A stretch of 64,000 nt of DNA from Bifidobacterium aquikefiri (lineage in GTDB: Bacteria > Actinomycetota > Actinomycetes > Actinomycetales > Bifidobacteriaceae). The stretch covers positions 1-64,000 of the forward strand of contig NZ_MWXA01000009.1 in assembly GCF_002259795.1 (NCBI RefSeq). Direction: 5' to 3'. The notes under the pieces were generated by a model. It did no database searches and was not told where the DNA came from. It saw only the letters and a list, made by a program, of their open reading frames with translations. Below, piece after piece: positions 13,481 to 52,523 of the stretch. Numbering within the stretch: position 1 is the first letter of the stretch; each line of letters opens with the position of its first letter. Both the position numbers and the translations under genes were made by a program.

Positions 13481-13603
13481 ACTCATTGTGAACTCACTGA
13501 AGTACAAAGCGACAAAAAGCCATGAAACATGCCGAAAACCCTTGAAATGCTATGGGCAATTCAAGGGTTTTCATGCTCTGTACTCCAGCGAGTTCACAAT
13601 GAG
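13481..13603. repeat. Palindromic intergenic element, copy A
   Basis: CTCATTGTGAACTC at 13482-13495 is the exact inverse of GAGTTCACAATGAG at 13590-13603. Inside, CACTGAAGTAC faces GTACTCCAGCG, and a 12-bp perfect inner stem AAAACCCTTGAA / TTCAAGGGTTTT sits at the centre. The element follows the typA stop on the minus strand. The same outer sequence bounds three other intergenic elements in this window, near 19.4, 44.8 and 52.4 kb. Confidence 0.8.
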
Positions 13604-13632
13604 CGCTAACTACCAAAAATTGACGTCATCAA

Positions 13633-15555
13633 TCAGCTATTTTTGTTCTGACGACGCTGGCGTGCGTTCCATTTGTACCACTGATCACGGTCGAGAATGA
13701 TCTTGCGCACACGAATCGACTCTGGCGTGACCTCGACGCACTCGTCTTCGTTCGCAAAGTCCAACGACTCTTCAAGGCTCATATCAATGGGTGGAGTCAA
13801 GGTCTCAAGCACATCAGCTGTGGCGGAACGCATATTTGTCATATGCTTTTCGAGCGTCACGTTAATGTCCAGATCCCCCGGCTTATTGGCGATACCAACG
13901 ATCTGACCCTCATATACAGGTGTCTGTGGCTTGACGAAGAAGTTGCCACGAGCCTGAAGCTTCTGCATGGCGTATGGGCTTGCCTTGCCTGAACGGTCAG
14001 AAACCATCGAACCGTTCTGCCGGGTCGTGATTTCTCCTGCCCAAGGTGCATAGCCGGCGGAAAGCGATGAAGCGATGCCTGTACCACGAGTGGCACTGAG
14101 GAGAGCAGTTCTGAAACCGATCAGGCCACGGGACGGAACGGTGAACTGAAGACGGACCCAGCCTGAACCATGGTTGCTCATGGAGTCCATACGACCCTTG
14201 CGGTCTGCCATCAGCTGCGTGATGGTACCCATATATTCCTCAGGAACATCAATGGTCGTGTTCTCCATTGGCTCATTGAGCTTGCCATCAATCTCCTTGG
14301 TGACAACCTGAGGACGACCGACCGTGAGTTCATATCCCTCGCGGCGCATCTCCTCTGCAAGCACAGCCAATGCCAGCTCGCCACGACCCTGAACCTCCCA
14401 CGCATCTGGACGTTCGGTCGGAACGACCTTGATGGAGACATTGCCGATAAGTTCGTGGTCAAGACGATCCCTGAGCATACGGGCGGTCAGCTTGTGATCC
14501 TTGCCTTCCGTTCCGGCGATTGGAGAATCGTTGGTAGCGAAGGTCATCGAAATGGCAGGATCATCGACATGAATCAGCGGCAATGGCTTCGGGTCGTTGG
14601 GATCAACGATTGTTTCGCCAATCATGATGTCCGAGACTCCTGCAATGGCAACGATATCTCCAGGACCTGCCTCATCAACCGGTGTGCGATCAAGACCGAC
14701 CGTGCGAAGAATCTCGGTCAACTTGAAGTTTTCGATAGAGCCACCCACGCGGGAAAGACCATAGGTCTTCCCCTTCACAAGCTTTCCGTTATAGATACGC
14801 ACCAAGCCGAGTCGACCAAGATAGTCGGATGCATCGATGTTCGTGACGTGAGCCTGAACTGGGGCACCTTCTTCATATTCCGGTGCGGGAATGTTCTTCA
14901 AAATGGCATCGAACAGTGGCTCAAGATCCTCATTGTCAGGAACGTCACCGTCAGCTGGCTGCTTCGTTGAAGCGTAGCCGGCCTTCGCCGCGCAATAGAT
15001 CACTGGCAGATCAAGCAATGAATCAAGGTCGAGATCGACACCTTCTTCGCTCACATCCTGTGCGAGTCCAAGCAACAGATCGGTGCTCTCTGAAACGACT
15101 TCCGATATACGCGCATCAGGACGATCTGTCTTATTGATGGCGAGAATCACAGGGAGCTTGGCCTCCAGGGCCTTACGCAGCACAAAACGTGTCTGCGGCA
15201 ATGGTCCCTCTGAAGCATCAACCAGCAAGACAACGCCATCCACCATGGAGATACCGCGTTCGACCTCGCCACCGAAATCGGCGTGACCAGGTGTGTCGAC
15301 AACGTTGATGGTGATGCCTTCTGGCTCATTCAATTCTGCAGCGAGAGGACCGGTATATTTCACAGCCGTATTCTTCGCCAGAATGGTGATGCCCTTTTCG
15401 CGTTCCAAGGCGTTGGAATCGAGAACTCGATCGGGAACCTCTTCGCGCTCGGAAAAGACATGCGATTGCTTGAGCATCGCATTAACCAACGTCGTTTTAC
15501 CGTGATCAACGTGAGCAACAATCGCAACATTCCTGATATCACCGCGTACCGCCAT
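13633..15555 (-). CDS. typA: Ribosome-associated GTPase TypA/BipA
   Basis: This translational GTPase acts on the 50S subunit in ribosome assembly and stress adaptation. The 640-residue protein has G1 AHVDHGKTT at residues 14-22, G3 [15 protein letters not shown]4 NKTD, and the EF-G-like domains III and V, followed by the TypA-specific C-terminal domain with [14 protein letters not shown]. The start is the ATG at 15555, with GAGG five bases ahead; the open frame begins 18 codons earlier without support. It is a stand-alone gene, with palindromic element copy A downstream. Confidence 0.96.
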
Positions 15556-15715
15556 TACAACCTCATTCTGTGGGTAACAATCCAAAGGAAGATAATCCTT
15601 GGAAGACAAGAGTTCCTAAACCTCGGCAATTCTAGCCACATTTATAGACTTTAAGAATTTCTTGAGAGTGAACATGCGGCCAATGTAGGGTGAAAAGCTT
15701 GCAAATCAATGCAAA

Positions 15716-16393
15716 TCAGCGGTTTTCACTCTCCAACGCATTCGCCACATTAGGCAGGAACGGAGCGAGCGATGGCAGTTGCTCAAGTGAGTCCAGCCCG
15801 ATTTTTTCAAGGAAGTATTCGGTGGTGACCAACAACGCTCCACGCGTATCCTCATTAATACCGTTCTCGCGAATCAAGCCTCTGATCATCAATGAACGCA
15901 ACACGCCGTCAGAATTCACACCACGTATGGCTCCAACCTGTGCACGCGTCATCGGCTGCTTGTAAGCAATAATTGCCAATGCCTCCAGCGAAGCCTGAGT
16001 AAGCCTTGCAGTCTGGCCTGCGGTGACGAATGCGGAGACGACAGATTCGAACTCCCGCCGATTCACGAACTGCCAGCCTCGGGCGGTGTGTCGCAGGGTG
16101 AAGCCGTGCGGCTGCTGAGATGCCGACGCTGACTCGTAGCTGTCGGTGAGCTCCTGCAAGGCAGCGGTAACATCGGAAAGGTCAACAGCGAGAATTCTTG
16201 CAAGATCCTCTCCGTGCTGCGGTTGATCCGCAACCATAAGAATCGCTTCCAGGCAAGCCTTGAGTCCTCCTGGAAAATCATTGACATCGAAGTCAACATA
16301 TTCTGGGCGCGCATCGTTACGATCTATCTGAGTCTCATACATTCCCGGGTCCGCCCGTGTTCCAGACACTGCGTCAGATGTATTGTCAACCAT
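15716..16393 (-). CDS. scpB: Segregation and condensation protein ScpB
   Basis: This winged-helix kleisin-interacting subunit works with ScpA and SMC to condense and segregate chromosomes. The 225-residue protein has an acidic N-terminal leader of about 40 residues and then two winged-helix domains, with the family segments LKACLEAILMVADQP and QASLEALAIIAYKQPMTRAQV plus GLIRENG. The ATG at 16393 has GAGAAGG seven bases ahead. It follows scpA after 12 bases and is therefore co-transcribed. The SMC partner is in this same window at 45-48.7 kb. Confidence 0.93.
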   Translation of the reverse strand: MVDNTSDAVSGTRADPGMYETQIDRNDARPEYVDFDVNDFPGGLKACLEAILMVADQPQHGEDLARILAVDLSDVTAALQELTDSYESASASQQPHGFTLRHTARGWQFVNRREFESVVSAFVTAGQTARLTQASLEALAIIAYKQPMTRAQVGAIRGVNSDGVLRSLMIRGLIRENGINEDTRGALLVTTEYFLEKIGLDSLEQLPSLAPFLPNVANALESENR

Positions 16394-16405
16394 TCATCAA
16401 CCTTC

Positions 16406-17275
16406 TCATGCGAAATCACCGGCATCGACCGGCAAGGCGGCACCATCTGTGTGCTTGGCGACCCAACGAAGTGACAATGATGCAAACGGTCCGGCCTGCC
16501 TGTATTGCACGAAACCCTGTTTGAAGAATACCAGCACCGCAAAGAAACGAGCGATTATCTCCAATCGGCTCGTTGCATCACAGATCAGATCCTCGAAACT
16601 GCACGCATCTCCTTCCGCCGACATCAGTCTTTCGCGAATCATTGCAGCCTGAGCTTGCAGATTGACCTGAGGTACATGCAACTGTGCGAGTGAGACCTCT
16701 TCCGGCGGAGCATTCATCAACGCTCGGGCGGCAAGTCTCGCGAGATCGAATGCATCGGTGCTCCATTGCAATTCCGGGAGCATCGAAGCAACCTGTTCAG
16801 TGACCACAGCATGATGCGGGAAGAAACCGGAATTTGCTGCAAGACGCTCACGAAAATTATTTCCGGCCTCTTTGAAAGCCTTGTATTGCAGTAATCGTGC
16901 GAACAGGAGATCGCGATCTCGAAGTGCCTGCAACGTCTGCTCATCATGGTCACTGGATTCGGTGTGCGGCAGCAAGGCCGCGCTTTTAGCCTCAATCAGA
17001 ATCGAAGCAACATCGATGAATGCGCTCACTGTATCAATGTTCCTGTTCATATCGAGCGTCTGCACAAAATCGAGAAACTCTTGAGTTATCTCGCAGAGTG
17101 ACAGTTCGGTAAGATCCAGACTGCGGCGGGCAAGCAAACCCAGAAGCGCATCGAATGGACCTTGATAGACATCGAGATTCACCGAAAATTCCACATTGAT
17201 GTCATTCTCCATAACGGAAACATCGCTGGTTCCGTCTGAGGCAATCTGCTGATTCTCGGATATATGCGTTTCCAT
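16406..17275 (-). CDS. scpA: Segregation and condensation protein ScpA (kleisin)
   Basis: This is the kleisin that bridges the SMC heads. The 289-residue protein has a charged N-terminal leader, then the ScpA start FSVNLDVYQGPFDALLGLLA, LTELSLCEITQEFLDFVQ and the SMC-binding helices. The C-terminal winged helix ends LEIIARFFAVLVFFKQGFV, which contacts the SMC cap. A GTG at 17314 would overlap the parA end by 17 bases. I prefer the ATG at 17275, preceded by AAGAAGAG, but this is not certain. Order parA-scpA-scpB is typical of actinobacteria. Confidence 0.93.
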   Translation of the reverse strand: METHISENQQIASDGTSDVSVMENDINVEFSVNLDVYQGPFDALLGLLARRSLDLTELSLCEITQEFLDFVQTLDMNRNIDTVSAFIDVASILIEAKSAALLPHTESSDHDEQTLQALRDRDLLFARLLQYKAFKEAGNNFRERLAANSGFFPHHAVVTEQVASMLPELQWSTDAFDLARLAARALMNAPPEEVSLAQLHVPQVNLQAQAAMIRERLMSAEGDACSFEDLICDATSRLEIIARFFAVLVFFKQGFVQYRQAGPFASLSLRWVAKHTDGAALPVDAGDFA

Positions 17276-17297
17276 CGTCTCTTCTTGCAAGCCGTCG

Positions 17298-18137
17298 TTA
17301 AGCGACGATGCCACGAGCGATCAGTTCTCGAGCAACTTCACGATATTCCTTTGCAGTCTTGTGCTCTGGGGCATACATGGTTATCGGCTCCCCCGAGACC
17401 GTGGCATCAGGAAGCTTGATCGAGCGCGTGATGACCGAATGCAGCACCTTGCCCTTGAACGCCTCATAGATGCGTTGGAGCACCTCTTCTGAATGCAAGG
17501 TACGCGTATACATCGTCACCAGCACCCCATAGACAGTCAGATCAGGATTAATTCGCGTCTGCACCTTTTCGATTGACTGCATAAGCAATGCAACGCCTCT
17601 CAGGGCAAAGAACTCGGCAGCTACAGGGATTATCACTCCGTCCGCCGCTGTAAGTGCATTTACGGTCAACAGACCCAGAGAAGGCTGGCAATCAATGATA
17701 ATCAAGTCATATTCGTTACGAAGCCGGCGCAAAGTGCCCGCAAGCACCTGTTCCCTACCAACCTCAGTGACCAGCTGTACCTCTGCCGCTGAAAGATCGA
17801 TGTTTGCAGGAATGATGTCCAGATTGGGGAAACGCGTATGCACGACCACATCGTGCACATCCATGGAAGGGTTAAACAACGCGGTATAGATCGTATTGTC
17901 AACGCTATTAGCATTGATGCCCAGTCCGACGGTCGATGCCCCCTGAGGATCGAAATCGACGATAAGGACACGACGACCGTAAATACTCAAAGCACCTGCG
18001 ATATTAATTGAGCTCGTCGTTTTGCCAACACCGCCCTTTTGGTTGCACATGGCAATGATTCTCGCAGGTCCATGTTGATGAAGAGACTCGGGTGCAACGA
18101 AGGTCTCATACTCTCGTCCCAATAAATCCGTAGGCAT
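17298..18137 (-). CDS. ParA/Soj-family ATPase
   Basis: This is a Walker-type ATPase of the ParA/Soj family that binds DNA non-specifically and positions cargo, usually chromosome origins. The deviant Walker A KGGVGKTT lies at residues 34-41, with DFDPQGASTVGLG and the Walker B region YDLIIIDCQPSLGLLTVNAL following. The 279-residue length suits a chromosomal Soj without a helix-turn-helix leader. No parB gene is adjacent. Instead it sits between xerD and scpA, so this may be the second ParA-like protein common in actinobacteria rather than the parAB pair at the origin. Its link to condensin genes is contextual. Confidence 0.9.
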   Translation of the reverse strand: MPTDLLGREYETFVAPESLHQHGPARIIAMCNQKGGVGKTTSSINIAGALSIYGRRVLIVDFDPQGASTVGLGINANSVDNTIYTALFNPSMDVHDVVVHTRFPNLDIIPANIDLSAAEVQLVTEVGREQVLAGTLRRLRNEYDLIIIDCQPSLGLLTVNALTAADGVIIPVAAEFFALRGVALLMQSIEKVQTRINPDLTVYGVLVTMYTRTLHSEEVLQRIYEAFKGKVLHSVITRSIKLPDATVSGEPITMYAPEHKTAKEYREVARELIARGIVA

Positions 18138-18200
18138 ACTGCTACACTACCAACTTCCCCGCTCATGCGTTTGTACGTCTAGACTTGTGCGGCATCGCCC

Positions 18201-18332
18201 CTATGAGCAAGACTGCTGACGCACATCGTGAATCCGCTCCTTGAAATGTATCGTACTCGACAGTGTAGGCACATCATCGAACAGCAGCAGCAATTCAGTC
18301 ACGCTTTTCTTTGCATGCTGAAGTTTTGTCAT
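18201..18332 (-). CDS. Possible 43-residue protein between xerD and parA
   Basis: An ATG at 18332, fourteen bases past the xerD stop and in another frame, opens 43 codons with a leucine cluster (TELLLLF) and a charged remainder ending RQQSCS. No ribosome site is convincing and the family is unknown. It is listed because it fills almost the whole gap between two co-directional genes. It may be chance. Confidence 0.25.
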   Translation of the reverse strand: MTKLQHAKKSVTELLLLFDDVPTLSSTIHFKERIHDVRQQSCS

Positions 18333-18345
18333 TGCAGATTCCGGC

Positions 18346-19299
18346 TCATCGTGCTCTCGGATGTGCCATGATATAGCTCTCCTTCAATGTTTCAGGGCTC
18401 ACATGCGTATATATCTGGGTCGTGGTGACCGAGGCATGCCCGAGCAATTCCTGCACAGTTCGCACATCGGCACCACCTTGAATCAGATGCGTTGCAAACG
18501 AATGCCTGAGTGTATGAGGGTGTACCTTCTGGGACAAGCCTGCACGAGCCGCAGTATATTGCACAATCTCCCATACCGATTGACGAGACAGCCTATGCCC
18601 GCGAGTGTTGAGGAATATAGCTCGCATCTCGAGTTTGGTCTTTGATCTCTTCTGCAACTCATTTCGTCCATATGTAAAATATTCCTGAACCGCTCGTTGG
18701 GCGTATCCGCCGAAGGGCACCAGTCTCTGCTTTGAACCCTTCCCCATAAGGCGAACGACACGACCAGCAAGATCGATATCTTCCCTATTGATTTTCACTG
18801 TCTCTGAAACCCGAGCTCCGGTTGCATACATCAGCTCCAGCAATGCCCTATCGCGGAGCGCGATTGGGTTGATATCTCCTGCCGAACATGCGGCTTCGAG
18901 CAGTGCTGCAACCTCATCGATCGTCAAGACATCTGGAAGATGCGCAGGAGCCTTTGGTGCCTTTATCTGTTGCGAGACATCGGCATCGATCTCATGCTCA
19001 GCCAAGGCAAAACGATGGAACTCATGTATTGAAGCCAGACGTCGGGCACGGCTGCGTGTCGATTCGTCCTGCAGACTCACGATGAAGTCCTCGACAGTCT
19101 GGGATTCAACAGGGGCAAGACTGGTATATCCATGCTGCTGCAACCATTCACAATACCGATGAATGTCTGCTTCATATGCCTGCACCGTCGAAGCGGCCAA
19201 TCCGCGTTCCACATCGATATGTACAAGAAATCGAGGGATAAATTTCCCGAACCAGGTGTCTGCACCACCTGTTGTGACTTTTCCCATACTATGAATCAT
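18346..19299 (-). CDS. xerD: Tyrosine recombinase XerD
   Basis: This is the partner recombinase of XerC. The 317-residue protein has an N-terminal core-binding domain and a catalytic domain with Arg in ATGARVSET, Lys in GKGSKQR, His and Arg in HPHTLRHSFATHL, His in LGHASVTTTQ and Tyr in IYTHV. It sits upstream of parA-scpA-scpB, the common actinobacterial context of XerD. The ATG at 19299 is chosen; a second ATG four codons on is possible, and neither has a strong ribosome site. Palindromic element copy B separates it from the ribosomal protein operon. Confidence 0.92.
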   Translation of the reverse strand: MIHSMGKVTTGGADTWFGKFIPRFLVHIDVERGLAASTVQAYEADIHRYCEWLQQHGYTSLAPVESQTVEDFIVSLQDESTRSRARRLASIHEFHRFALAEHEIDADVSQQIKAPKAPAHLPDVLTIDEVAALLEAACSAGDINPIALRDRALLELMYATGARVSETVKINREDIDLAGRVVRLMGKGSKQRLVPFGGYAQRAVQEYFTYGRNELQKRSKTKLEMRAIFLNTRGHRLSRQSVWEIVQYTAARAGLSQKVHPHTLRHSFATHLIQGGADVRTVQELLGHASVTTTQIYTHVSPETLKESYIMAHPRAR

Positions 19300-19361
19300 A
19301 GATTCCCGATTGGATTCGACGACTGTGCTGTATTGCCCACGAGCTTTTCGACTTGGTGAGG

Positions 19362-19473
19362 TTCATTGTGAACTCCACCAAGTATATAAGTCCTCAATCG
19401 TGAGAAATCAGGCCGCCGGGAGCCTAAAATGGCACCTTTCGGTGTTGCTATACTTTCTGAAGTTCACAACGAG
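19362..19473. repeat. Palindromic intergenic element, copy B
   Basis: TTCATTGTGAACT at the left is mirrored by AGTTCACAACGA at the right with one mismatch, and AAGTATA inside the left arm faces TATACTT inside the right arm. The element lies between the rplT terminator and the start of xerD. It shares both arms with copies A, C and D, while the centres differ. Confidence 0.75.
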
Positions 19474-19509
19474 CAACAGACACAAGCGTAATTCAGACCA
19501 AAAATATAA

Positions 19510-19533
19510 AAACCCCGTCAGAAGACGGGGTTT
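19510..19533 (-). terminator. Terminator of the infC-rpmI-rplT operon
   Basis: AAACCCCGTC (19510-19519) pairs perfectly with GACGGGGTTT (19524-19533) around a four-base loop. On the minus strand it is followed by TTTTTATATTTT. It lies 18 bases past the rplT stop, so it ends the ribosomal operon. Confidence 0.92.
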
Positions 19534-19551
19534 GAACAGCTACGGTCGTTT

Positions 19552-19935
19552 TCAGGCGGCCACAGGCGCGTTGACATCCTCTGGCAAAGCGTTCTTTGCC
19601 TGCTCAACGATTGTCTTGAATGTCTCTGGATCATTCACGGCCAAATCTGCCAAGGCGCGGCGATCGAGCTCGATGCCGGCAAGGTGCAAACCTTGGATGA
19701 AACGATTGTACGTGATGCCTTCGGCACGAACTGCAGCGTTAATGCGCTGAATCCAAAGCTTGCGGAAATCACCCTTGCGAGCCTTGCGATCGCGGAAGCT
19801 GTAGTTGAATGAATGGAGCAGCTGTTCCTTTGCCTTGCGATACAGACGCGAACGCTGTCCACGATATCCCGAAGCCCTATCCAATACGGTGCGACGCTTC
19901 TTCAAAGCGTTCACTGCGCGCTTTACACGTGCCAT
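19552..19935 (-). CDS. rplT: 50S ribosomal protein L20
   Basis: L20 (bL20) binds 23S rRNA early in 50S assembly. The 127-residue protein begins [15 protein letters not shown] and carries the family segments [20 protein letters not shown] and [17 protein letters not shown]. The Ala-rich C-terminus is a few residues longer than in enterics. It is the last gene of infC-rpmI-rplT, with a strong terminator directly after. Confidence 0.98.
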
Positions 19936-19977
19936 AATCTATTCCTGCTTTCCTTGGATCTTTAAGTTTCGCTGCGC

Positions 19978-20172
19978 TCAGTGATTGAGCAATTTTCTCA
20001 TGTTCTTGGTCTGGCCTGGAGCAAGAACCTGATCTGCCTTCAAGACACGACGCTTGCGAGCTGACTTGTGCTCGAGATTATGGCGCATGGCACTGCCGGC
20101 CTGCATCAGCTTTCCCGTGCCAGTGACGCGGATACGCTTCGAAGCCGCGGAATTACTTTTCATCTTCGGCAT
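19978..20172 (-). CDS. rpmI: 50S ribosomal protein L35
   Basis: L35 (bL35) is a small basic protein of the large subunit. The 64-residue sequence [20 protein letters not shown] and the later [14 protein letters not shown] are typical. It lies 14 bases after infC and 42 bases before rplT, in the standard order. Confidence 0.98.
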
Positions 20173-20186
20173 TGCTGCCCTCCTTG

Positions 20187-21318: not shown

Positions 21319-21397
21319 CACCCTCGGACATTACTGTCTGAAGTCATGCCATGTGCTCATGCTATCTGTGTCGCGCAAGCCAACATGGATGCGTGGA

Positions 21398-42842: not shown

Positions 42843-42851
42843 GGGATCGTT

Positions 42852-44096
42852 GTGAAAAAGTTTCAGCCATTTCTTCTCGGCAGTGACATAAATGTGTATG
42901 GCATGGCTCGCGCCTTCCATGAACAATATGGCATCGTCTCGAAGGCATATGCACACTTCCAGCTTGCCCCAACCAAATACAGCAGGATCGTCGACGTCAC
43001 GATTGTCCCAGAATTCGATGAACTCGATGCCTTCAGACACTACATGCTGCAACTTGGCGCTTCATTCAAGGCGCAGCACCCGGATACGGTTGCCCTGCTC
43101 ATTCCTTGCAGCGACGTGTACGCCAATCTGCTGAGTCAGTGTGGCGATGCATTGCGCAAGTATTTTGTCTATAACACTCTCGATGACGATATCAGCCATC
43201 GACTGAGTTACAAGAGCAGTTTCTATAAGATCTGCGAACAGTTCGATCTTCCGCATCCGCTCACCAAGACTGTCGATAAGGCAGCCGTTGAGCGAGGCGA
43301 GTACCGGAATCTACCCTTTGGTTTTCCTGTTGCCATGAAACCAGCCAATAGTGTCGAGTGGCTCAACATCGATTTTGAAGGGCGAAAGAAAGCCTTTATT
43401 CTCAATACTCCTGCCGAACTCGAAAACGCCATCCAGAAATCATACAAGGCCGGCTACACATCTGAGATGGTCATTCAGGACTTCATCCCCGGCGATGACG
43501 ACCGTATGCGCGTGTTGAACGCTTATGTCGATCAGCATCATCGGGTTCGCATGATGTTTCTCGGCCACCCCCTGCTCGAGGATCCAACACCGGTTGCAAT
43601 AGGCAACTATGCTGCGATTCTGCCGGATTACAACGAAGAGGTATTTCGAAAGATCGCCACGTTCCTTGAAGCGATTCAGTATGAAGGCGTGGCTAACTTC
43701 GATATGAAATTCGATGTGCGTGACCAGACATACAAGCTTTTTGAAATTAACCTGCGTCAGGGCAGAAGCAGTTATTTTGTGACCCTGAATGGCTTCAATC
43801 TCGCGAAATATTTCGTTGATGACTTGGTCGAAGACAGCAAATTCGATGGACATATCGTCTTTGGACGTGGCAACAAGCTGTGGCTTGAGATCCCACGTTC
43901 CATCTTCAAGACGTATGTTGCCGACAATGCTGACAAGAGAGTTGCACTAGAGATGATGAAACGTGGTGATTGGGGTACCACCCTTGAATATTCTCGAGAC
44001 ATGAACCCCTTGCGTTGGCTGCTCATACGGCATATGTTCAATATTTACAAGAGGGGCTACAAGCAGTATTTCATCAAGAAGGCGGATAAATCATGA
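42852..44096 (+). CDS. ATP-grasp ligase, D-aspartate ligase-like (Asl type)
   Basis: This carboxylate-amine ligase of the ATP-grasp fold resembles Enterococcus D-aspartate ligase, which attaches D-Asp to the side-chain amine of Lys in peptidoglycan precursors. The 414-residue protein starts with the pre-ATP-grasp domain FLLGSDINVYGMARAF; ATP-grasp segments are FPVAMKPANSVEW, MVIQDFIPGDDDRMRVLNAY, and LFEINLRQGRSSYFV with metal-binding Glu and Asn. It starts with GTG at 42852, nine bases after the MurE-like gene, and overlaps the racemase gene by four bases. Neighbours on both sides support a cell-wall cross-bridge role. Confidence 0.83.
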   Translation: MKKFQPFLLGSDINVYGMARAFHEQYGIVSKAYAHFQLAPTKYSRIVDVTIVPEFDELDAFRHYMLQLGASFKAQHPDTVALLIPCSDVYANLLSQCGDALRKYFVYNTLDDDISHRLSYKSSFYKICEQFDLPHPLTKTVDKAAVERGEYRNLPFGFPVAMKPANSVEWLNIDFEGRKKAFILNTPAELENAIQKSYKAGYTSEMVIQDFIPGDDDRMRVLNAYVDQHHRVRMMFLGHPLLEDPTPVAIGNYAAILPDYNEEVFRKIATFLEAIQYEGVANFDMKFDVRDQTYKLFEINLRQGRSSYFVTLNGFNLAKYFVDDLVEDSKFDGHIVFGRGNKLWLEIPRSIFKTYVADNADKRVALEMMKRGDWGTTLEYSRDMNPLRWLLIRHMFNIYKRGYKQYFIKKADKS

Positions 44097-44803
44097 AGCA
44101 ATTCTTTGCAGTGATAGGTGGTATGGGCACACTCGCCACAGAGAGCTATATCCGACTTGTTGATGAACTGACCCATGCTCATGAGGATCAGGAGTTTCTC
44201 GATTACGTGGTATTCAACGATTCAAGCGTTCCTGACCGCACTGAATTCATCTTGGGCAACAGTTCAGAGAGCCCATTTCCCTATATTGCAGATGATATTC
44301 GCAAGGCAACGGCCATCGGAGCCTCGTTCATTACGCTCCCCTGCAACACGGCGCACTATTTCTTTGACGAGCTTCAGGCACTCACGCCAGTCCCGATCAT
44401 TCACATGCCCAAAGTCACGATTGAGCGTATGTCGAAACTCTACCCCGCTGCTGAGCACCCGCGCGCGGCTTTCATGGGCACGCGCGGCAGTCTGGTGTCT
44501 GGAATCTATAGCACTGCGGTCAAGGCAGCAGGGTATGAATTCGTTTCTCCCGATGAGGCCATTCAAGAGAAGATCAGCTACCTGATCTATCACGATGTAA
44601 AAGAGACCGGCAACCTTAACAAGGATCGTTACACTGAAGCCCTTGATGACATGCTCACGGGTCTTCATTGCGACATCGTGATCCTCGGCTGTACCGAACT
44701 TTCGGTATTGAACGAGGCATTCCCCATGCCTCAGCTGCCCATCGTCGATGCACAGGCGGTTTTGGCCGATGAAACGGTCAAACAGGCGAAAAAATTGCGC
44801 TGA
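44093..44803 (+). CDS. Aspartate/glutamate racemase family protein
   Basis: This PLP-independent racemase should supply D-Asp or D-Glu for the preceding ligase. The 236-residue protein has the start FFAVIGGMGTLATESYI, the first catalytic Cys in LPCNTAHYFFDEL and the second in ILGCTELSVL. The 236-residue size is normal for aspartate racemase. The ATGA overlap with the ligase gene indicates translational coupling. Palindromic element copy C follows. Choice between D-Asp and D-Glu cannot be made from sequence alone. Confidence 0.88.
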   Translation: MKQFFAVIGGMGTLATESYIRLVDELTHAHEDQEFLDYVVFNDSSVPDRTEFILGNSSESPFPYIADDIRKATAIGASFITLPCNTAHYFFDELQALTPVPIIHMPKVTIERMSKLYPAAEHPRAAFMGTRGSLVSGIYSTAVKAAGYEFVSPDEAIQEKISYLIYHDVKETGNLNKDRYTEALDDMLTGLHCDIVILGCTELSVLNEAFPMPQLPIVDAQAVLADETVKQAKKLR

Positions 44804-44828
44804 ATCATCCCAATTCGAAAACCTTTTT

Positions 44829-44931
44829 GTTCATTGTGAACTTCTCAAAGTATCAAGACCAGATATCGCTGCCTTCGTGAGCTCAAATCAAGGAAATCGA
44901 GCTCTTATACTGCAGTAAGTTCACAATGAAC
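44829..44931. repeat. Palindromic intergenic element, copy C
   Basis: GTTCATTGTGAACTT (44829-44843) is the exact inverse of AAGTTCACAATGAAC (44917-44931). AAGTAT inside the left arm faces ATACTGC inside the right arm, and GAGCTC occurs twice in the centre as a further stem. It lies between the convergent racemase and smc genes. It is the most perfect copy of the family. Confidence 0.8.
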
Positions 44932-44966
44932 GCAATGCTTGCATATTCCGGACAGCGCGGACGCAT

Positions 44967-47900
44967 TCAATGACTCATTTTCTGGGAAATGACGGCAGTG
45001 ACGCCGTCATCACGCATGGTTATACCATACAACGCATCAGCAATGCTCATCGTGCGCTGCTGGTGGGTGATGACAATGAGCTGAGCATGCGAACGCAGAT
45101 CTTGCAGCGCGTTGAGCAATCTTGTGAGATTCACGTCATCAAGGGCAGCTTCGACTTCATCCATCACATAGAACGGGCTTGGACGCGCAGTGAAAATTGC
45201 AAAGAGCAAAGCAAGAGCCGTCAGGGAACGTTCTCCGCCAGATAGCAGAGAAAGCTGTTTGACGCGCTTGCCCGCAGGACTCGCCTCAACAATCACACCC
45301 GTGTGCAGCAAATCATCGGGATCCTCCAGGCGCAGACGTCCTGTTCCACCAGGGAACAAGGTGCTGAATACCTTGGTGAAAGCCTGTGCCGTATCCTCGA
45401 AAGCCGTTCGGAATACGTCCATCATCGTCGCATCAAGATTCTTGACCAAGCTCATCAGATCATCGCGAGATTGCGTCACATCATTGCGCTGCTTGTTAAG
45501 GAACGCATTGCGCGATTCCAATGACTCGTATTCCTCGGCAGCCAGTGGGTTCACCTTACCCAGCCTCGCCAAATCACGTTGAGCTTTCTCCAGCCGAGAC
45601 TGCTGTTCTTCGCGAGAATATGGAATAGTCATGATCCGTTCATCGGGTGAAGCTGCATGCTGTGGATCAGCACCACTGATCTGGCCGTCTTTGACACTGC
45701 GGTCTTCGCTCTCACGAGGTTGGTCATCGCGGGATTCTTCATCACTGCCATCAAGCAATTTAGGCTTGCCTGTTTCATCCAGTACAGGTATCTGCTTATC
45801 GGGTCCAAATCCATCGATGAGTTCGGTGAGATTCAATCCCAGTTCATCGGAAACCTTTTGCGTAAGCTGGCCGAACTGAGTCGCCAATCGCTCTCGTTCT
45901 ATGTCCAAAGCATGCTCTTGCTGCTGCAATGCGCCGACCTGTGGCTCCTTGCCATCTCTGAGTGCACGCAGATCCTTCAATTGAGCATCATGCTCGGACG
46001 CTGCGGACTGCAAGGCATCACGCTTCTCCTGGGCAGATGAAACTGCAGCTTCTACAAGGTTGATGACCTGCTGCGTTGCACGAGCAACAGCAAGTGAGTT
46101 ATCGTACTGCGCCTGCAGCACAGCGTTCTTGCGCTGAATACGTATACGTCTCTCGTCGGCTGATTTCGCATTGTCCCGAAGCATCTGGGATTGTCTGGTC
46201 AATGACTCTGCCTTGGAAACGGCCTCGTTCCAAGCTATTTTGGCGGTAACCTCCTGCTCGCGAGTCTTGGCCAGTGATGCTTCGAGGGACTTTTCTCGCT
46301 GGCCGAGTTCGTCAAAACTGGCCTGTCCATCGGAAGAACGTTCCGCTTCGTTCAAAGCCTCTTGCAGATCATCGAGTTTGACTGCATGATTGTGTGCATC
46401 ATCGTGAGCTTGGCTGCTCTTTGTCTCAGCATCGTGGATTTGATGGCCGAATTGAGTGATGCGTCGCTGCAAATCGTTCAGTGAGTCACGCATCTGCTTC
46501 AACCTCAGCTGAACCTCGGTGCGCTTATTACGTAGAGATTCCAAGATCGAACGTGCAGCGCTGTGCTCTTCACTCAGATGCTTCACCGATGTGGTGAGCT
46601 CATCAAGTGTTGCATCCATTTCCTTGACCTGTTTCAGAGCAGCGTCTCGTCTCGAAACCAGTGCAAGATCGCTTTGTGAAAGGGAGGAGCCGCCCGATGC
46701 TCCAACAGCATTCACGACATCGCCGTCCGCGGTGACCGCCTGCTGCCATCCGTCGTGGATTGCCGATCTTGCCTGTTCAAGCGAATCGACTGCGGCAACA
46801 TCAGATAACAGCATCCTTACCGATTGCAAGATTGATACTGCCATCTGGTGGTCGACACCGCTGGATTCCCTGACTGAAATGTATTGTGCGAGCGAGCTAA
46901 ATCCGGATTGATGCGGATTTGCCGTGTCGAAATCTCCCAAGCTTTCGTTGATTGCTGTACCTGAGCTTGGAGAAATCAGCACGGCCTTGCCCAGATTATT
47001 GTCGCGGACGTGCTGAAGGGCCCGGTCAATCTGCTCTGCATCAGGCACAACCACGGCATTTGCGAATACATCCAGGGCATGAGCCACTGGCTCTTCCCAA
47101 CCGGTCTTCACGTGAATGAAGTCCGCAAGTTTTCCCATTACATCGATGGCATCGTCTTTTTCCAAAGCTCCTGAAGCATTGCGGCTCTCCAAGGTGTCAT
47201 TGAGCGCGTCAGCCTTGGCCTGCAATGAGATTATTCGACCATTGATCTTTCTTTGCCGTTCATTGGCCTCATTGAGCTTAAGTCCCTCGGCTTCGTATGA
47301 TTTCTGTGCCTTGGCGAGCTGGTCATCGAGGTCCTGCGCATCCATGTGCTCGCTCTGTGCACGCATCTCGGTATGCCTCGTCTCGAGATCGCCCAGCTGC
47401 TGGCGTAGATTGCCGATCTGGCCTTCAAAATCCTTGGCTCGGCTCTGCGATAGCTGCAAAGCCGACTGCTCGCGTGCAATCATCTCACGAAGCTTGGAAA
47501 GCTGACGTTCACGCTGCTGCGTCGACTGCCGAAGCTCATTCAACGTCTGGCGGACTGAGGCAAGGTGCTTTTCGAATCCTGCGCGTTCCTCCGTGGTCCG
47601 ATCGAATTTCAGGCGTGCATCATCAATCAATCGCTGCTGCGCCTTCCCCTGCTGTTCCAGCTCTTCAGCTCTGTTGCGCAACATCTGGGAATCATCGCCG
47701 ACTGCCTGTTGAATTCTTCCCAGTGCTGACTCACTGCGTTCATGAGCCAATGACTGTAAGGAGCGCAGCCTCTCCTGGATCCTGGTGAGCTCGTTGAATC
47801 CGTCATTCAGCTCGCGCATTTCAGGACTTGTGGTACTGCTCAGACTTTCAATCTGCTCGATCTGTGACTTGATGGTGACGAGTTCACGCTGCTGTGCGAC

Positions 47901-48665
47901 TAACGCTCCGCGCGCCTTGGTCAGTTCAGCCCGCACGGTATCGCGACGTGAACTTAGCGTCACTGCGTCCTCTGCCAACAGCCTGGACTGTGCATCGCGC
48001 AATGCAATCTGAATGCCGTCTGCGCGCCGAGAAATCCTTGCCTGCCGTCCCAAAGGTCCGAGCTGACGGTGGATTTCACTTAAGAGATCATCAAGTCGAG
48101 ACAGGTTCGTCTCGGTATTCGCCAGCTTACGCAACGCTCGTTCCTTGCGCTTACGATGCTTTAAGATGCCGGCTGCCTCTTCAATGAAAGCTCGATGGCC
48201 GGCCGGATCCGCTCGCAGGATCGAATCGAGTCTGCCCTGCCCTATGATGACGTGCATCTGAGAGCCAAGGCCTGTATCGCTCAACAGTTCCTGAATGTCA
48301 AGCAACCTGCAGGAAGTGCCATTGATGGAATATTCCGATCCACCATTTCTGAAAATCGTACGAGTAATGGTCACTTCGGAATATTCGATGTCCAGAGCAT
48401 GATCGGTATTGTCTATTGTCAGACTGACCTGAGCACGACCGAGTGGCGGGCGCGACGATGTGCCGGCAAAGATCACGTCTTCCATCGAGGTACCGCGCAA
48501 GGTCTTTGCACCCTGCTCCCCCATGACCCAGGCCAGAGCGTCTACAATATTCGACTTTCCAGAACCATTCGGCCCCACAACAGCAGTGATTCCTGGCTCA
48601 AAGCGTAAGGTCGTTGCCGATGCGAAGGATTTGAAACCTCGTAGACTCAGATCCTTCAGATACAT
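44967..48665 (-). CDS. smc: Chromosome segregation ATPase SMC
   Basis: This is the structural maintenance of chromosomes protein, the motor of the SMC-ScpAB condensin whose partners are at 15.7-17.3 kb. The 1232-residue protein has Walker A GPNGSGKSN at 31-39, a long coiled coil to the hinge near residues 510-650 (GKLADFIHVKTGWEEPVAHA), a second coiled coil, then signature LSGGERSLTALALLFAIF and Walker B FYVMDEVEAALDD. An acidic insertion (ESRDDQPRESEDRS) lies in the C-terminal coiled coil and is not typical. Its start overlaps the folC stop in TAATG, so the two genes are translationally coupled. Confidence 0.97.
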   Translation of the reverse strand: MYLKDLSLRGFKSFASATTLRFEPGITAVVGPNGSGKSNIVDALAWVMGEQGAKTLRGTSMEDVIFAGTSSRPPLGRAQVSLTIDNTDHALDIEYSEVTITRTIFRNGGSEYSINGTSCRLLDIQELLSDTGLGSQMHVIIGQGRLDSILRADPAGHRAFIEEAAGILKHRKRKERALRKLANTETNLSRLDDLLSEIHRQLGPLGRQARISRRADGIQIALRDAQSRLLAEDAVTLSSRRDTVRAELTKARGALVAQQRELVTIKSQIEQIESLSSTTSPEMRELNDGFNELTRIQERLRSLQSLAHERSESALGRIQQAVGDDSQMLRNRAEELEQQGKAQQRLIDDARLKFDRTTEERAGFEKHLASVRQTLNELRQSTQQRERQLSKLREMIAREQSALQLSQSRAKDFEGQIGNLRQQLGDLETRHTEMRAQSEHMDAQDLDDQLAKAQKSYEAEGLKLNEANERQRKINGRIISLQAKADALNDTLESRNASGALEKDDAIDVMGKLADFIHVKTGWEEPVAHALDVFANAVVVPDAEQIDRALQHVRDNNLGKAVLISPSSGTAINESLGDFDTANPHQSGFSSLAQYISVRESSGVDHQMAVSILQSVRMLLSDVAAVDSLEQARSAIHDGWQQAVTADGDVVNAVGASGGSSLSQSDLALVSRRDAALKQVKEMDATLDELTTSVKHLSEEHSAARSILESLRNKRTEVQLRLKQMRDSLNDLQRRITQFGHQIHDAETKSSQAHDDAHNHAVKLDDLQEALNEAERSSDGQASFDELGQREKSLEASLAKTREQEVTAKIAWNEAVSKAESLTRQSQMLRDNAKSADERRIRIQRKNAVLQAQYDNSLAVARATQQVINLVEAAVSSAQEKRDALQSAASEHDAQLKDLRALRDGKEPQVGALQQQEHALDIERERLATQFGQLTQKVSDELGLNLTELIDGFGPDKQIPVLDETGKPKLLDGSDEESRDDQPRESEDRSVKDGQISGADPQHAASPDERIMTIPYSREEQQSRLEKAQRDLARLGKVNPLAAEEYESLESRNAFLNKQRNDVTQSRDDLMSLVKNLDATMMDVFRTAFEDTAQAFTKVFSTLFPGGTGRLRLEDPDDLLHTGVIVEASPAGKRVKQLSLLSGGERSLTALALLFAIFTARPSPFYVMDEVEAALDDVNLTRLLNALQDLRSHAQLIVITHQQRTMSIADALYGITMRDDGVTAVISQKMSH

Positions 48666-50086
48666 TACGCTCTCTCCGCCTTTGGCTTCTTCAAGTCAGG
48701 ATTATCGTGCTCCTTGAGAAGGATACGCGCATCGCCTGCAGTGACAAAACTGCCACAAATCAGTACGCCTCGCCCGTATCCAACACCGAGTTCATCTTCG
48801 CTATCTACCAAGTCAACGGCCTTCTGGATCGCATCGGTGAGCATATCCTCGCGAATCACGCGGTCACGACCAAAGACGCTCACAGCAATTTTCTCAAGCT
48901 CTTCGGCGGGCATGACCCGATCACGCCATGAATTCTCCGTCACCACGATCTGGCTGAGCAGAGGTTCCAGAATCCCAAGGAATTCCTCGACCTGCTTGTC
49001 CTTCATCATGGCGACGACGCCGACGAGCTGTTCGAAGTGATAGCTCTCTTCAATCGCATCGCGCAATGCCTGAGCCGCATTCACGTTGTGACCGCCGTCA
49101 AGAATGATCGTCGGGGAATTGCGAATCTGTTCGATCCGTCCAGGAATCTTCACACTGCCCAGCGCCTCTGCCACCAAATCACCGTCAAGTGTGCCATTGA
49201 CCGGCAAGACAACCTCGGCAGCTGCGAGCGCCTCCAAGGCATTGTGTGCTTGATGCTTGCCGAATTTGGCGATAGGAACCTGTTCGTATCGCCCGTTCGG
49301 GGTGACCAATGTCGCAACCTGACCACCCACCGCAGGGATTCTTGATTCAACGCTCATTTCCTGACCGTCACGAATCAGCTCGCGTGCCTGATTGTTGTGG
49401 AATGCTGCTTCAATGATCGGCATGACCTTTTCCGCATGAGGCTGCGGTCCGACGATGACCGTTGAATTCTTCTTGATGATTCCTGCCTTTTCGGTGGCAA
49501 TCTCCTCTACGGTATTGCCAAGCCACTGCATGTGGTCCATGTCGACAGGCCCGATGATCGAGACATCCCCATCGAGCACATTCGTCGCATCCCACAATCC
49601 GCCCATCCCGACTTCAATGACGGCAACGTCGACCGGAGCATCGGCAAACGCCCATATGGCCATGGTCGTCAGAACCTCGAAGAAGCTCATCTTCGGGTCT
49701 CCCCGTTTGATGGACTCCTTATCGACGATATCGATGAAATCCTTCACCTGGTTGTATACGTCGATGAATCTGTTGTCGGAAAGCTGCTGACCATTGACGC
49801 ATATGCGTTCGGTGATCTTTTGCAGGTGCGGCGAAGTGTAGAGTCCGGTGCTCAATCCATAGGTTCGTACGATGGTTTCGACCATACGAGCGGTCGAGCC
49901 CTTGCCGTTGGTGCCGGTGATGTGCACGATGCGGAATGACCGTTCCGGGTGACCGAGAAGATCGAGAATCATCTTCATTCGATCGAGATTGAGGTTGGTC
50001 GTATTATGTTCAGGCGGTCGTTGCATGATCAGCCTCTGAACATCCTGCAGACTTTCTCCGCCTTTATTTGGTTCCTCTAATGACAA
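48665..50086 (-). CDS. folC: Folylpolyglutamate synthase / dihydrofolate synthase
   Basis: This Mur-ligase-fold enzyme adds glutamate to folates, and in many bacteria also to dihydropteroate. The 473-residue protein has HITGTNGKGSTARMVETIVR (P-loop), YTSPHLQKITERICVNGQ, FFEVLTTMAIWAFADAPVDV with the catalytic-site Glu, and EVGMGGLWDATNVL. The C-domain has ILDGGHNVNAAQALRDAI, the DGAHN-like motif. The start is TTG 50086 with GAAGG ahead; an ATG at 50026 preceded by AGAGG is nearly as likely. It precedes smc. Confidence 0.93.
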   Translation of the reverse strand: MSLEEPNKGGESLQDVQRLIMQRPPEHNTTNLNLDRMKMILDLLGHPERSFRIVHITGTNGKGSTARMVETIVRTYGLSTGLYTSPHLQKITERICVNGQQLSDNRFIDVYNQVKDFIDIVDKESIKRGDPKMSFFEVLTTMAIWAFADAPVDVAVIEVGMGGLWDATNVLDGDVSIIGPVDMDHMQWLGNTVEEIATEKAGIIKKNSTVIVGPQPHAEKVMPIIEAAFHNNQARELIRDGQEMSVESRIPAVGGQVATLVTPNGRYEQVPIAKFGKHQAHNALEALAAAEVVLPVNGTLDGDLVAEALGSVKIPGRIEQIRNSPTIILDGGHNVNAAQALRDAIEESYHFEQLVGVVAMMKDKQVEEFLGILEPLLSQIVVTENSWRDRVMPAEELEKIAVSVFGRDRVIREDMLTDAIQKAVDLVDSEDELGVGYGRGVLICGSFVTAGDARILLKEHDNPDLKKPKAERA

Positions 50087-50282
50087 GTCGCGCCTTCTAT
50101 CTCGTCTTTCTTCCCCCGGATCAGGGCCACTCGACCATTGTAAACGAAGCGTGATACGCGTTTCAGGGTTATTGCACGCTCAGAGACGAACGCATTCATC
50201 GAGGGACTATGTAATCGTTCATGGGTAGGATGGAATGTGTTATGTGGGAAGTTAGATGGCCATGGTCGGCCGAAGGAGAGTC

Positions 50283-51851
50283 ATGTCGGAAGTGGAAGAT
50301 TTGAATGCTGTAAATTCCAGCGAAGATAGTCCAAATATTGAAAAACGTATCAATAATCGAACGCTCAGTCCTGTTTCGCAGAATTTCAAGAAATTTATGA
50401 CCACCGGATGGGGCAAGGAAGATACGCACGTCAGGCCACTCGAATCAAGCGAATATACACCGGAACGACTGGAAACACTGGGCCACAGATTCCCAGGAGA
50501 CCGCATCGTCATTCCTGCGGGTACGCCGAAGGCGCGTAACAATGACTGTGACTACGCATTCCGTCCCGATACGACTTTCGCCTATTACACGGGTCTTGGT
50601 GAGGATCTCGAGCCGGGAGCCGTTCTGGTGCTGAATCCCGTCGCACCCGGATCTGCCGAGGCAAATGCCGGGAAGACTCATGTTCCAGAACTGTTCGTGC
50701 ATCCACGGGCAGACCAGAGCACCGAGGATTATTACCGCTCCTCGCAGTATGGCGAATACTGGGTCGGTCCTCGCGCTGGAATCGAAGAGCTTGGCACCAT
50801 GACCGGCATTGAGACGCATGATATCGCACAACTTTCCGATGCTCTCGCCAAGGATGTCGGCACCGAGCAGAATGCCGTTCGGCTGCGCGTGGTGCGTCAA
50901 GCCGACGAAAAGGTAACCGATCTGGTTCAGTCCATCCGCCGTACGCATGGCTTTGATGATCCCGACAAGAATCGCAGCGTCGATGGCAAGCTTCACGAGT
51001 TCGCGGCCGAAGCGCGCATGCTCAAGGACTCCTACGAGGTTGGCGAAATGCGCAAGGCCATTGCAGCGACGAAGGACGGCTTCGATCGCATGCTCATCCG
51101 TTTGCCTCAAGTCAAGGACACCACACGTTCCGAGCGAAAGCTTGAAGGAGCATTCAACGCAGTAGCTCGCGAAGAGGGCAACACCGTTGGTTACGACACG
51201 ATTGTGGCATCAGGCAGCAATGCGCCCATCCTGCATTGGATGCGCAACACGGGTGATGTATCTTCCGGAGATCTGCTCCTGATCGATGCAGGTGTTGAGG
51301 TAACGAGCCTATATACGGCAGATATCACCAGGACCTTCCCCGTTTCAGGCAGGTTCACGCCATTGCAACGCAAACTCTACGAAACCGTTCTGAAGGCGCA
51401 GCAAGCTGGATTCGAAGCGGCGCAACCGGGAGCAACATACTCGAATATCCATCATGCGGTCATGCGGGTGCTTGCAGAGGCGCTCCACGAATGGGGCATC
51501 CTGAAGGTCAGTGTAGAAGAGGCACTCAGTCCTGAAGGCCAGCAGCACCGTCGTTGGCATGCCTGCGGATGTGCACATCATCTGGGATTGGATGTTCATG
51601 ATTGTGCACAGGCTAGATATGAGTCATATCAGGATGCACCGATCACTCCGGGAATGATTTTCACAATCGAGCCTGGTCTCTATTTCAAGGACAATGACCT
51701 TCTTATTCCGCCCGAGTACCGCGGTATTGGCATTCGCATTGAAGATGACGTGTTGATGACCAAAAATGGCCCGGAATGGCTTTCTTCTGCCATTCCCAAG
51801 CAGGTTGATGACGTCGAGGCCTGGATGGCTCAGCAGGCAGGGAAGGCCTGA
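50283..51851 (+). CDS. pepP: Xaa-Pro aminopeptidase (aminopeptidase P)
   Basis: The metallopeptidase removes N-terminal residues that precede proline. The 522-residue protein has a creatinase-like N-domain (CDYAFRPDTTFAYYTGLGED) and a pita-bread C-domain with all five metal ligands: Asp in LLIDAGVE, Asp in YTADITRTFPVSG, His in HHLGLDVHD, Glu in FTIEPGLYF and Glu in GIRIEDDVL. The start is the ATG at 50283 with GGAGA just ahead. It is transcribed divergently from folC and followed by a Nudix gene after 49 bases. A Leu-rich or membrane segment is absent, so it is cytoplasmic. Confidence 0.94.
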   Translation: MSEVEDLNAVNSSEDSPNIEKRINNRTLSPVSQNFKKFMTTGWGKEDTHVRPLESSEYTPERLETLGHRFPGDRIVIPAGTPKARNNDCDYAFRPDTTFAYYTGLGEDLEPGAVLVLNPVAPGSAEANAGKTHVPELFVHPRADQSTEDYYRSSQYGEYWVGPRAGIEELGTMTGIETHDIAQLSDALAKDVGTEQNAVRLRVVRQADEKVTDLVQSIRRTHGFDDPDKNRSVDGKLHEFAAEARMLKDSYEVGEMRKAIAATKDGFDRMLIRLPQVKDTTRSERKLEGAFNAVAREEGNTVGYDTIVASGSNAPILHWMRNTGDVSSGDLLLIDAGVEVTSLYTADITRTFPVSGRFTPLQRKLYETVLKAQQAGFEAAQPGATYSNIHHAVMRVLAEALHEWGILKVSVEEALSPEGQQHRRWHACGCAHHLGLDVHDCAQARYESYQDAPITPGMIFTIEPGLYFKDNDLLIPPEYRGIGIRIEDDVLMTKNGPEWLSSAIPKQVDDVEAWMAQQAGKA

Positions 51852-51900
51852 CCTTTTCGTTCCAGCCGCAATCATCAATCAAGATAACCAGGGAGTATGC

Positions 51901-52413
51901 ATGGCAACACCAGAGTTCATTCTCAAGCTGCGCAAGAAAATCGGTCATGATCCTCTGTGGTTGGTGGGGATCACAGCGTATGTCCACTCCCAGGAAGGCA
52001 AGATACTGTTGGGCAGGCGGAGTGATACGGGCGAATGGGCTCTGGTGTATGGCATCAATGAACCGTGCGAGGAACCCGCGGATACGGTAGTCCGAGAGGT
52101 CAAGGAAGAGACTGGTATCGATGTAGTCCCCACAGCCTTGGCATCGGTCAAGTCATCTGCGCGCATGCTGACCTATGGCAATGGAGATCAGGCTCAATAC
52201 ATGGACTTGCTGTTTATATGCACGCTCAAGGATGGCGGAAACGCAGAACCTTACGTTGGCGACGAAGAGAGTCTTCAGGTCGGATGGTTCAGTCTCGATG
52301 AATTGCCCCAGCCACTTGCAAAAACCACGATGGAGCGGCTTGCCTACGTGCAGGAATTTGAAAATCGTTGCCACAGAGGAGACAATCGCGCACTTTTTGC
52401 CCAAAATCTCTGA
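51901..52413 (+). CDS. Nudix hydrolase
   Basis: This hydrolase acts on nucleoside diphosphates linked to another moiety. The 170-residue protein from the ATG at 51901 (GGGAG four bases ahead) has the Nudix box in GINEPCEEPADTVVREVKEE, followed by TGID, with the Gx5Ex7REUxEExGU pattern complete. The N-terminal lead-in LWLVGITAYVHSQEGKILLG and the closing VGWFSLDELPQPL are typical of MutT-like proteins. It is probably co-transcribed with pepP. Substrate unknown. Confidence 0.9.
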   Translation: MATPEFILKLRKKIGHDPLWLVGITAYVHSQEGKILLGRRSDTGEWALVYGINEPCEEPADTVVREVKEETGIDVVPTALASVKSSARMLTYGNGDQAQYMDLLFICTLKDGGNAEPYVGDEESLQVGWFSLDELPQPLAKTTMERLAYVQEFENRCHRGDNRALFAQNL

Positions 52414-52420
52414 GTTTTTC

Positions 52421-52523
52421 ATTCATTGTGAACTCGCTTGGGTAGTTACACTTGAAATCGGCGCTCTCGCGTTGAAATTAAGGGGAATCTAGCACTGTAT
52501 ACCCCGAAATGTTCACAATGAAC
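52421..52523. repeat. Palindromic intergenic element, copy D
   Basis: TTCATTGTGAAC (52422-52433) is the exact inverse of GTTCACAATGAA (52511-52522). GGGTAGT in the left arm faces GTATACCCC in the right arm. It lies eight bases past the Nudix stop and about 40 bases before the ROK operator, so it separates two transcription units on the same strand. Confidence 0.78.

Follow-up and report, generated by a model that had tools for sequence, protein, structure and literature searches.

Paired palindromic sites around a phased A/T centre: candidate bent DNA micro-loops at transcription-unit borders in Bifidobacterium aquikefiri

Dispersed intergenic palindromes have long been known, and their function is not agreed. 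REPINs, as the available part of PMC3116915 describes them, have short conserved palindromic ends in inverted pairs, set at a fixed distance around a variable middle and placed between genes; REPIN/REP-BIME sequences are linked to RAYT transposases and are known from Pseudomonas and enterobacteria. BIME/RIP sites, bound by gyrase or IHF, are likewise inverted palindromes behind genes, some of them arranged around a bend (compare PMC2817692). Repressor loops of the LacI/GalR type use two palindromic sites about 90-110 bp apart in helical phase (compare PMC1762422 and PMC5081198). Invertons, segments that site-specific recombinases flip, have inverted end sites, a centre found in both orientations and a matching, overlap-like spacer (extract of PMC11892184). 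Here we describe a family of paired palindromic sites with likenesses to all of these systems. Four copies had been noticed in a stretch of 64,000 nucleotides, the window, which is positions 1 to 64,000 of contig NZ_MWXA01000009.1 in assembly GCF_002259795.1 of Bifidobacterium aquikefiri.

The family fits no full definition of REPIN, repressor loop or inverton. It shares the REPIN layout, but no Y1 transposase was found in 12 of 12 genomes searched and there is little or no pairing in its centre; its own copies also show length steps of helical turns, phased A/T tracts and, for 6 of the 27 orthologous pairs, a centre turned round between the species. As in repressor loops, two palindromic sites stand in helical phase, but here there are dozens of copies lying behind genes rather than at promoters, and the bend is built into the sequence. 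As in invertons, the centre occurs in both orientations, in this case between species, but no promoter or coding switch and no dedicated recombinase is visible, and there are about 40-50 copies, each shorter than 130 bp. The likeness to BIME/RIP sites is one of layout; the sequences differ. The best explanation of the copies is that they are one family of dispersed chromosomal sites acting as duplex DNA. We give a probability of about 0.5 to the reading that each copy is an intrinsically bent stretch of DNA which a protein bridges into a micro-loop at a transcription-unit border, and whose centre can invert. It is a more tentative proposal, held with less than even confidence, that they make up a new class of element: sequence-encoded, protein-closed micro-loops of about 9-11 helical turns, some 40-50 to a chromosome, which would mark borders behind genes. 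Selection would act on how readily the centre bends and not on its sequence, and strand exchange in the arms would flip it.

The source genome (G000; 2,408,364 bases in 18 contigs) was searched together with its relatives. A strict pair pattern, CATTGTGAACT-N60..90-GTTCACAATG, gave 39 forward and 38 reverse matches and none in the reversed control. With up to 3 mismatches the arm pattern found 47 forward and 47 reverse arms (1 and 0 in the reversed control), which form 47 short pairs; none of the arms is listed with 3 mismatches. All 47 + 47 arms pair, so at this sensitivity G000 has neither single arms nor a tail of decayed ones. In one congener, G018, 73 arms gave 36 pairs and one partnerless arm with 3 mismatches; the 36 copies, from 72 of the 73 arms, are the sets used for length and gene context. 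A second congener, G015, had 43 pattern matches, 21 of which were inspected. The preliminary description had placed the four window copies correctly to within 1 bp, and its account of distinct centres, an inner AAGTAY/RTACTT pair and palindromic ends proved accurate, as did its suggestion of a palindromic site at both ends. The outcome that it had named as counting against it, only four copies and no enrichment between genes, was not found, the genome having 47 paired copies.

In the arm the palindrome GYTCATTGTGAAC occupies positions 4-16, ACTY 15-18, a four-base spacer (N4) 19-22 and AAGTA 23-27, and the end palindrome overlaps ACTY-N4-RAGTA (positions 15-27). The outer arm differs by species. 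G000 and G018 both have GTTCATTGTGAAC, and most of the G015 copies inspected (21) have AAGTTTTTGGCACTT; AAGTTTTGAGAACTT is found in both copies of a further genome, G191, and nearly so in two copies of G015. The inner ACTY-N4-RAGTA is common to the species by construction of the search pattern.

The lengths of the copies fall into steps. With CATTG and CAATG taken as end points, the lengths in G000 (47 copies) are 97 bp (32 copies), 98 (2), 107 (1), 108 (9), 109 (2) and 118 (1), and the 36 of G018 are 97 (20), 98 (3), 107 (3) and 108 (10). Pooled, the 83 copies are 97 (52), 98 (5), 107 (4), 108 (19), 109 (2) and 118 bp (1), with none between 98 and 107 bp in a search window of 95-130 bp between outer ends, where intermediate lengths would have shown. 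These steps correspond to one and two helical turns, to within 1 bp. The 27 ortholog pairs of G000 and G018 behave in the same way: 21 are equal in length, four differ by 1 bp, one by 10 and one by 11, and no pair differs by 2-9 bp.

The centre is free in sequence and periodic in A/T content, with spectral peaks at 10.5, 10.6, 10.5 and 10.7 bp in four sets, where the power is 4-9 times that of shuffled sequences. Among the 97-bp copies of G018, A/T reaches 95-100% at positions 38-41, falls to 8-18% at 43-44 and returns to 92-100% at 48-50; the 108-bp class has one additional A/T tract at the dyad. The tracts are made of A runs or T runs alike, and the two halves have no consistent pairing. In the 21 equal-length, gapless pairs among the 27 orthologs, tract positions show 36 exchanges of A and T against 51 changes of A/T content, compared with 27 against 196 elsewhere (P = 7e-8); the mirror test of C and G exchanges at out-of-phase positions was weaker (14:85 vs 10:162, P = 0.026). 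A wedge model predicts a mean bend of 50 degrees in G000 and 72 degrees in G018, compared with 26 degrees for shuffled sequences; the prediction exceeds that of a copy's own shuffles in 43 of 47 and 34 of 36 copies. We read the centre as being under selection for bendability rather than for its letters. Nucleosome-positioning sequences show the same pattern, A/T steps recurring about every 10-10.5 bp and G/C standing half a turn away from them. The present family differs in being bacterial and in having two specific end sites and a quantised total length.

A hairpin formed by the centre was considered and rejected. Over 28 copies, column pairs in the centre stayed close to chance, columns 34 and 42 lying modestly above it, and left/right identity at positions 32-46 was not consistently above that of shuffles in three species. 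A duplex loop accounts jointly for four features: lengths that change in steps, tracts in phase, symmetric ends and a centre without consistent pairing. We saw no RNA or simple transposon model that explains all four. In such a loop, a dimeric protein able to pair two sites, as a tetramer or a dimer of dimers, would bind both ends on the same helix face, and the bent centre would close a micro-loop of ~70-110 bp.

Comparison of orthologous copies in G000 and G018 shows which parts are held constant. Arm positions 6-17 and 25-27 have 3 changes in 810 comparisons. In the 21 equal-length pairs, spacer positions 19-22 changed in 13-20 of 42 comparisons, and centre positions 28-54 outside the tract at 38-41 in 7-19 of 42; the flanks are mostly 80-89% identical where alignable. 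We infer that selection holds the arms of each copy in their own place. Only copies that fit the arm pattern entered the ortholog pairs, and a badly decayed partner would have escaped notice; but this filter allows up to 3 mismatches per arm, and hardly any occur. The earlier claim that the elements are kept at unit borders agrees with this conservation between species.

In some ortholog pairs the centre has turned round in place. We found 17 collinear, 6 inverted and 4 unclear pairs among the 27, and a rerun of the randomised orientation rule gave 18, 6 and 3. The inverted pairs score 33, 26.5, 24, 23, 23 and 15; as none of 1404 control alignments of non-orthologous centres reaches 20 and one reaches 15, five inversions are safe and one is probable. 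The threshold rule is looser, calling 41 inverted and 17 the same among 702 non-orthologous pairs. In the three inverted pairs where it can be read, the switch point, judged by eye, lies inside the arms. Spacer bases 19-22 remain with the flank in one pair and base 19 in another while the centre turns; in the third, base 8 remains with the flank and base 20 moves with the centre. The inversions may have arisen by strand exchange between the matching arms of a looped or extruded element, the agent being either a site-specific recombinase or template switching during replication.

The two spacers of a copy tend to match, which may be a trace of such strand exchange between arms. Arm agreement at positions 18-23 was 163/282 in G000 (z 5.7), 140/192 in G018 (z 7.4) and 106/126 in G015 (z 7.9), and in each case none of 2000 shuffles was as high; for these sets the G018 copies were cut by similarity from 36 to 32, and those of G015 were the 21 located copies of the 43 matches. 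There is no consistent excess at positions 28-46 (z 2.5 at 28-31 in G000; 1.6 at 28-31 and 2.1 at 32-36 in G018; -2.5 at 32-36 in G015; the remainder below 1), and positions 1-5 give z 0.9, 2.2 and 1.4 in G000, G018 and G015. In a redundant set of 69 copies, which retains orthologs and duplicates and omits loci L053-L056, z is 2.7 at position 29, 2.9 at 34 and 2.2 at 45. The whole N4 is identical in 8/47, 14/32 and 11/21 copies (G000, G018, G015), with 0.8, 1.5 and 1.5 expected. Between orthologs, both arms changed to the same base at 10 sites, compared with 3.7 in shuffles (1 of 2000 as high). Starting from sites where the G000 arms agree, both arms had changed at 12 (2.9 expected); starting from agreement in G018 the effect was weaker, with 13 against 8.4 expected.

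This pattern could be the work of a dedicated site-specific inversion system, with ACTY-N4-RAGT as a tyrosine-recombinase core, the spacer as the strand-exchange overlap, and the bent, phased centre allowing sites less than 100 bp apart to pair and flip. The match at positions 18-23 without consistent excess at 28-46, the joint changes in both arms, the in-place inversions with their switch points inside arms, and the helical phasing of lengths and tracts would all be expected of it. We nevertheless think it unlikely. Complete N4 identity is limited to the copies counted above, and the tyrosine recombinases clearly common to G000, G018 and G015 are XerC- and XerD-like only (a comparison of 29 of 31 PF00589 matches in five genomes, with other recombinase families outside the search). 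A dif-like site, CCGATAATGTACGTTATGTCAG, was found by pattern in all three species; the arms are unlike it, and a Xer/dif-type site was rejected. Similarity to tyrosine recombinases occurs in just 2 of 100 element neighbourhoods, and a promoter or coding switch in the centre was not evident, without a systematic test. The same inversions could also be produced by template switching between inverted repeats, which has been proposed for small chloroplast inversions and needs no special enzyme. A tyrosine recombinase would best explain the six-base window, but as only Xer-like enzymes are clearly shared and the dif-like site is unlike the arms, we place the bent loop first and the inversion system second.

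No copy among the 83 in two species has a flanking direct repeat of at least 4 bp at any of 5 offsets, extending what had been reported for the four window copies, and the arms of G000 and G018 revealed no full-length partner that carries these ends together with a transposase. Repeats of 2 bp next to the arm are in excess (18 vs 5.2 expected), which we attribute to semi-conserved bases adjoining it. The earlier judgement that this is not a recent miniature inverted-repeat transposable element therefore stands, given the lack of target duplication, of a common centre and of unpaired arms in G000. In G018 there are, however, recent near-identical copies, near 837/843 kb, 997/998 kb and 174/373/1867 kb. 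These (L101, L098/L099 and L085/L089/L112) share flanks of 8-22 bp on most sides, with uneven ends, and the three-copy set has a longer left flank that by eye resembles the 3' end of a tRNA gene. It looks as though some of the adjoining DNA had been copied along with them, and to judge by them the family evidently spreads at times. At the places in G018 matching the window copies at 13481 and 19361, where counterparts are absent, the intergenic DNA is too divergent to define the boundary of an empty site.

The recent copies, and the variable presence between species, would suit a REPIN-like mobile repeat, selfish or domesticated, whose paired ends were the substrate of a transposase and which spread as a unit. 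The layout would suit it too, with inverted conserved ends, a variable spacer, a fixed distance and an extragenic position, as in the available part of PMC3116915. We regard this as quite improbable. The Y1/RAYT transposase profile PF01797, positive in 5 of 14 control genomes, found nothing in 12 of 12 genomes that included G000, G018, G015 and G191, three of them copy-rich. G000 has no unpaired or decayed arms, the arms are conserved between orthologous copies, the copied units take short stretches of flank with them and end unevenly, and the column pairs of the centre in 28 copies, columns 34 and 42 apart, are near chance.

The elements lie between transcription units, as the preliminary description had proposed. 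With a simple codon-model gene finder none of the 83 copies in G000 and G018 is inside a predicted gene; 37 are at convergent, 43 at tandem and 3 at divergent borders, and by hand count a predicted stop codon lies within 50 bp of 71 of the 80 convergent or tandem copies. It is possible that a loop behind genes acts as a border, forming a barrier to running-on transcription, to the spread of supercoils, or to both. Of the 97 gene ends that face an element, a simple scan put a canonical terminator, a G+C hairpin followed by a T run, near 16, of which 4 fall inside the element; of 54 control ends it put one near 7. These counts neither support nor exclude a terminator function. Of the roles first suggested, terminator, insulator or nucleoid-protein site, the last fits best, in the specific form of a bent, helically phased loop, which had not been proposed; termination is not shown.

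The location just behind stop codons would also be natural for an RNA element whose stem, ~25 bp long and lying in the 3' untranslated region, terminates transcripts or makes them more stable. The arms, spacers included, do tend toward complementarity, and in tandem contexts wobble-type mismatches number 36 on the sense strand and 22 on the other, a difference that is not significant by our own estimate. We think this very unlikely. Helical length steps and phased tracts without consistent pairing have no evident meaning for an RNA, and the 175 arm mismatches at positions 18-23 divide into 100 transitions and 75 transversions. At gathering scores Rfam found the tmRNA alone across the window, and no family at any copy.

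Several observations weigh against bridged micro-loops acting as borders. The bridging protein is putative, and in G000 no exact GTTCATTGTGAAC was found outside the elements that could mark a regulator gene. Placement behind genes could be mere tolerance. Spacing along the G018 chromosome is random (coefficient of variation of gaps 0.99; Kolmogorov-Smirnov P = 0.51) and the dif-like site is not avoided, so a chromosome-scale role is without support. Ascertainment is a concern: of the 47 copies in G000, 20 find no counterpart fitting the arm pattern among the 36 in G018, where the corresponding place was checked for two of the 20 only. Copies come and go, and some in G018 are recent and near-identical, so the family has a mobile or selfish component. 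Some rare variants of the outer arm in G015 stand at both ends of a copy, which fits whole-arm pairing or common descent.

In G000 the dif-like site lies at C14:132373-132394, ~28 bp from the element at C14:132244-132344 (L013). For G018 the list of arms has none closer than 50 kb to the dif-like site (1252823).

The family is narrowly distributed. The strict pair pattern is present in 2 of 149 relatives, G000 itself and G018. The core pattern without the outer palindrome occurs in 7 of 189 family genomes, with 30 matches in G000, 31 in G018, 43 in G015 and 2 in G191; single core matches in G007, G240 and G241 were not counted because their ends do not match. G240 and G241, of another genus, share a core-like match (L155, L156) beside an apparent tRNA gene end, with different ends. 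Across a sample of 396 genomes of the order, which excluded G018, G015 and G191, two had the core pattern, G000 and one chance-like match. Three single matches in unrelated bacteria (genome_contigs) were rejected, their insides being unlike the family. One contig in viral_contigs holds the G000 copy C17:167521, and one copy tried in each of the phage and plasmid collections gave no match. In a search of G000 for solo sites, the one match free of mismatches is an arm of copy 4 of the window. A further seven sites, with one mismatch each, are located outside elements, and C14:205198 among them agrees exactly with the arm consensus GYTCATTGTGAAC; by eye, without gene prediction, they were judged not element-like. 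We found no description of the family in the literature covered, which left out most subscription papers, and the word Bifidobacterium is absent from the main text, as far as available, of PMC12306157, PMC3733652 and PMC2267715.

The copies and parts within the window are listed in the table. With up to 2 mismatches, GTTCAYTRTGAAC has 18 matches here, whereas 100 shuffles average 5.1 and never reach 18; the count covers both strands, so one palindrome may count twice. Copy 3 lies between convergent open reading frames (ORFs), 44093-44803 (+) and 44967-48665 (-), and its ortholog in G018 is 10 bp longer, with a centre too diverged for an orientation call. Copy 4 starts 8 bp past ORF 51766-52413 (+), with ORF 52630-53859 (+) downstream, and has an ortholog with a collinear centre.

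Table. Copies of the element in the window and, for copy 3, its parts
Feature	Coordinates	Strand	Description
Copy 1	13481..13604	.	Longest class, 118 bp CATTG to CAATG; inverted arms 13482-13504, 13581-13603
Copy 2	19361..19474	.	108-bp class; arms 19362-19384, 19451-19473
Copy 3	44829..44931	.	97-bp class; arms 44830-44852, 44908-44930
Copy 4	52421..52523	.	97-bp class; arms 52422-52444, 52500-52522
End site (example, copy 3)	44829..44841	.	13-bp palindrome GTTCATTGTGAAC, positions 4-16
Spacer N4 (example, copy 3)	44844..44847	+	Positions 19-22; mirror 44913-44916, no match here
Centre (example, copy 3)	44854..44906	.	Part with phased A/T tracts family-wide; portion inverted between species in some copies other than copy 3

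The window has two genes for Xer-like tyrosine recombinases, at 5605-6570 and 18346-19299 (minus strand), and copy 2 lies ~60 bp upstream of the latter. A phage-type integrase fragment at 56501-56764, near the tmRNA gene (55061-55458), is 84-87% identical over 114-116 residues to integrases of G018, G012, G009 and G000. Integrases of 444-450 residues are 92-99.8% identical among G000, G009, G012 and G018 (L141, L137, L139, L136, L140), far above the identity of the Xer-like proteins of the same genomes, which suggests recent transfer.

Four features are new relative to the preliminary description: lengths that step by helical turns, A/T tracts in phase, spacers that match and centres inverted in place. 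The family separates the hypotheses on such palindromes sharply, because the first two features point to bending of duplex DNA rather than to an RNA fold or simple transposition, and with so many copies in related species it is in effect a natural mutation experiment. If a bridging protein is found, the family would be a sequence-specific bacterial insulator or architectural site whose working part is bendability, and transcription-unit borders and supercoil barriers would become directly testable.

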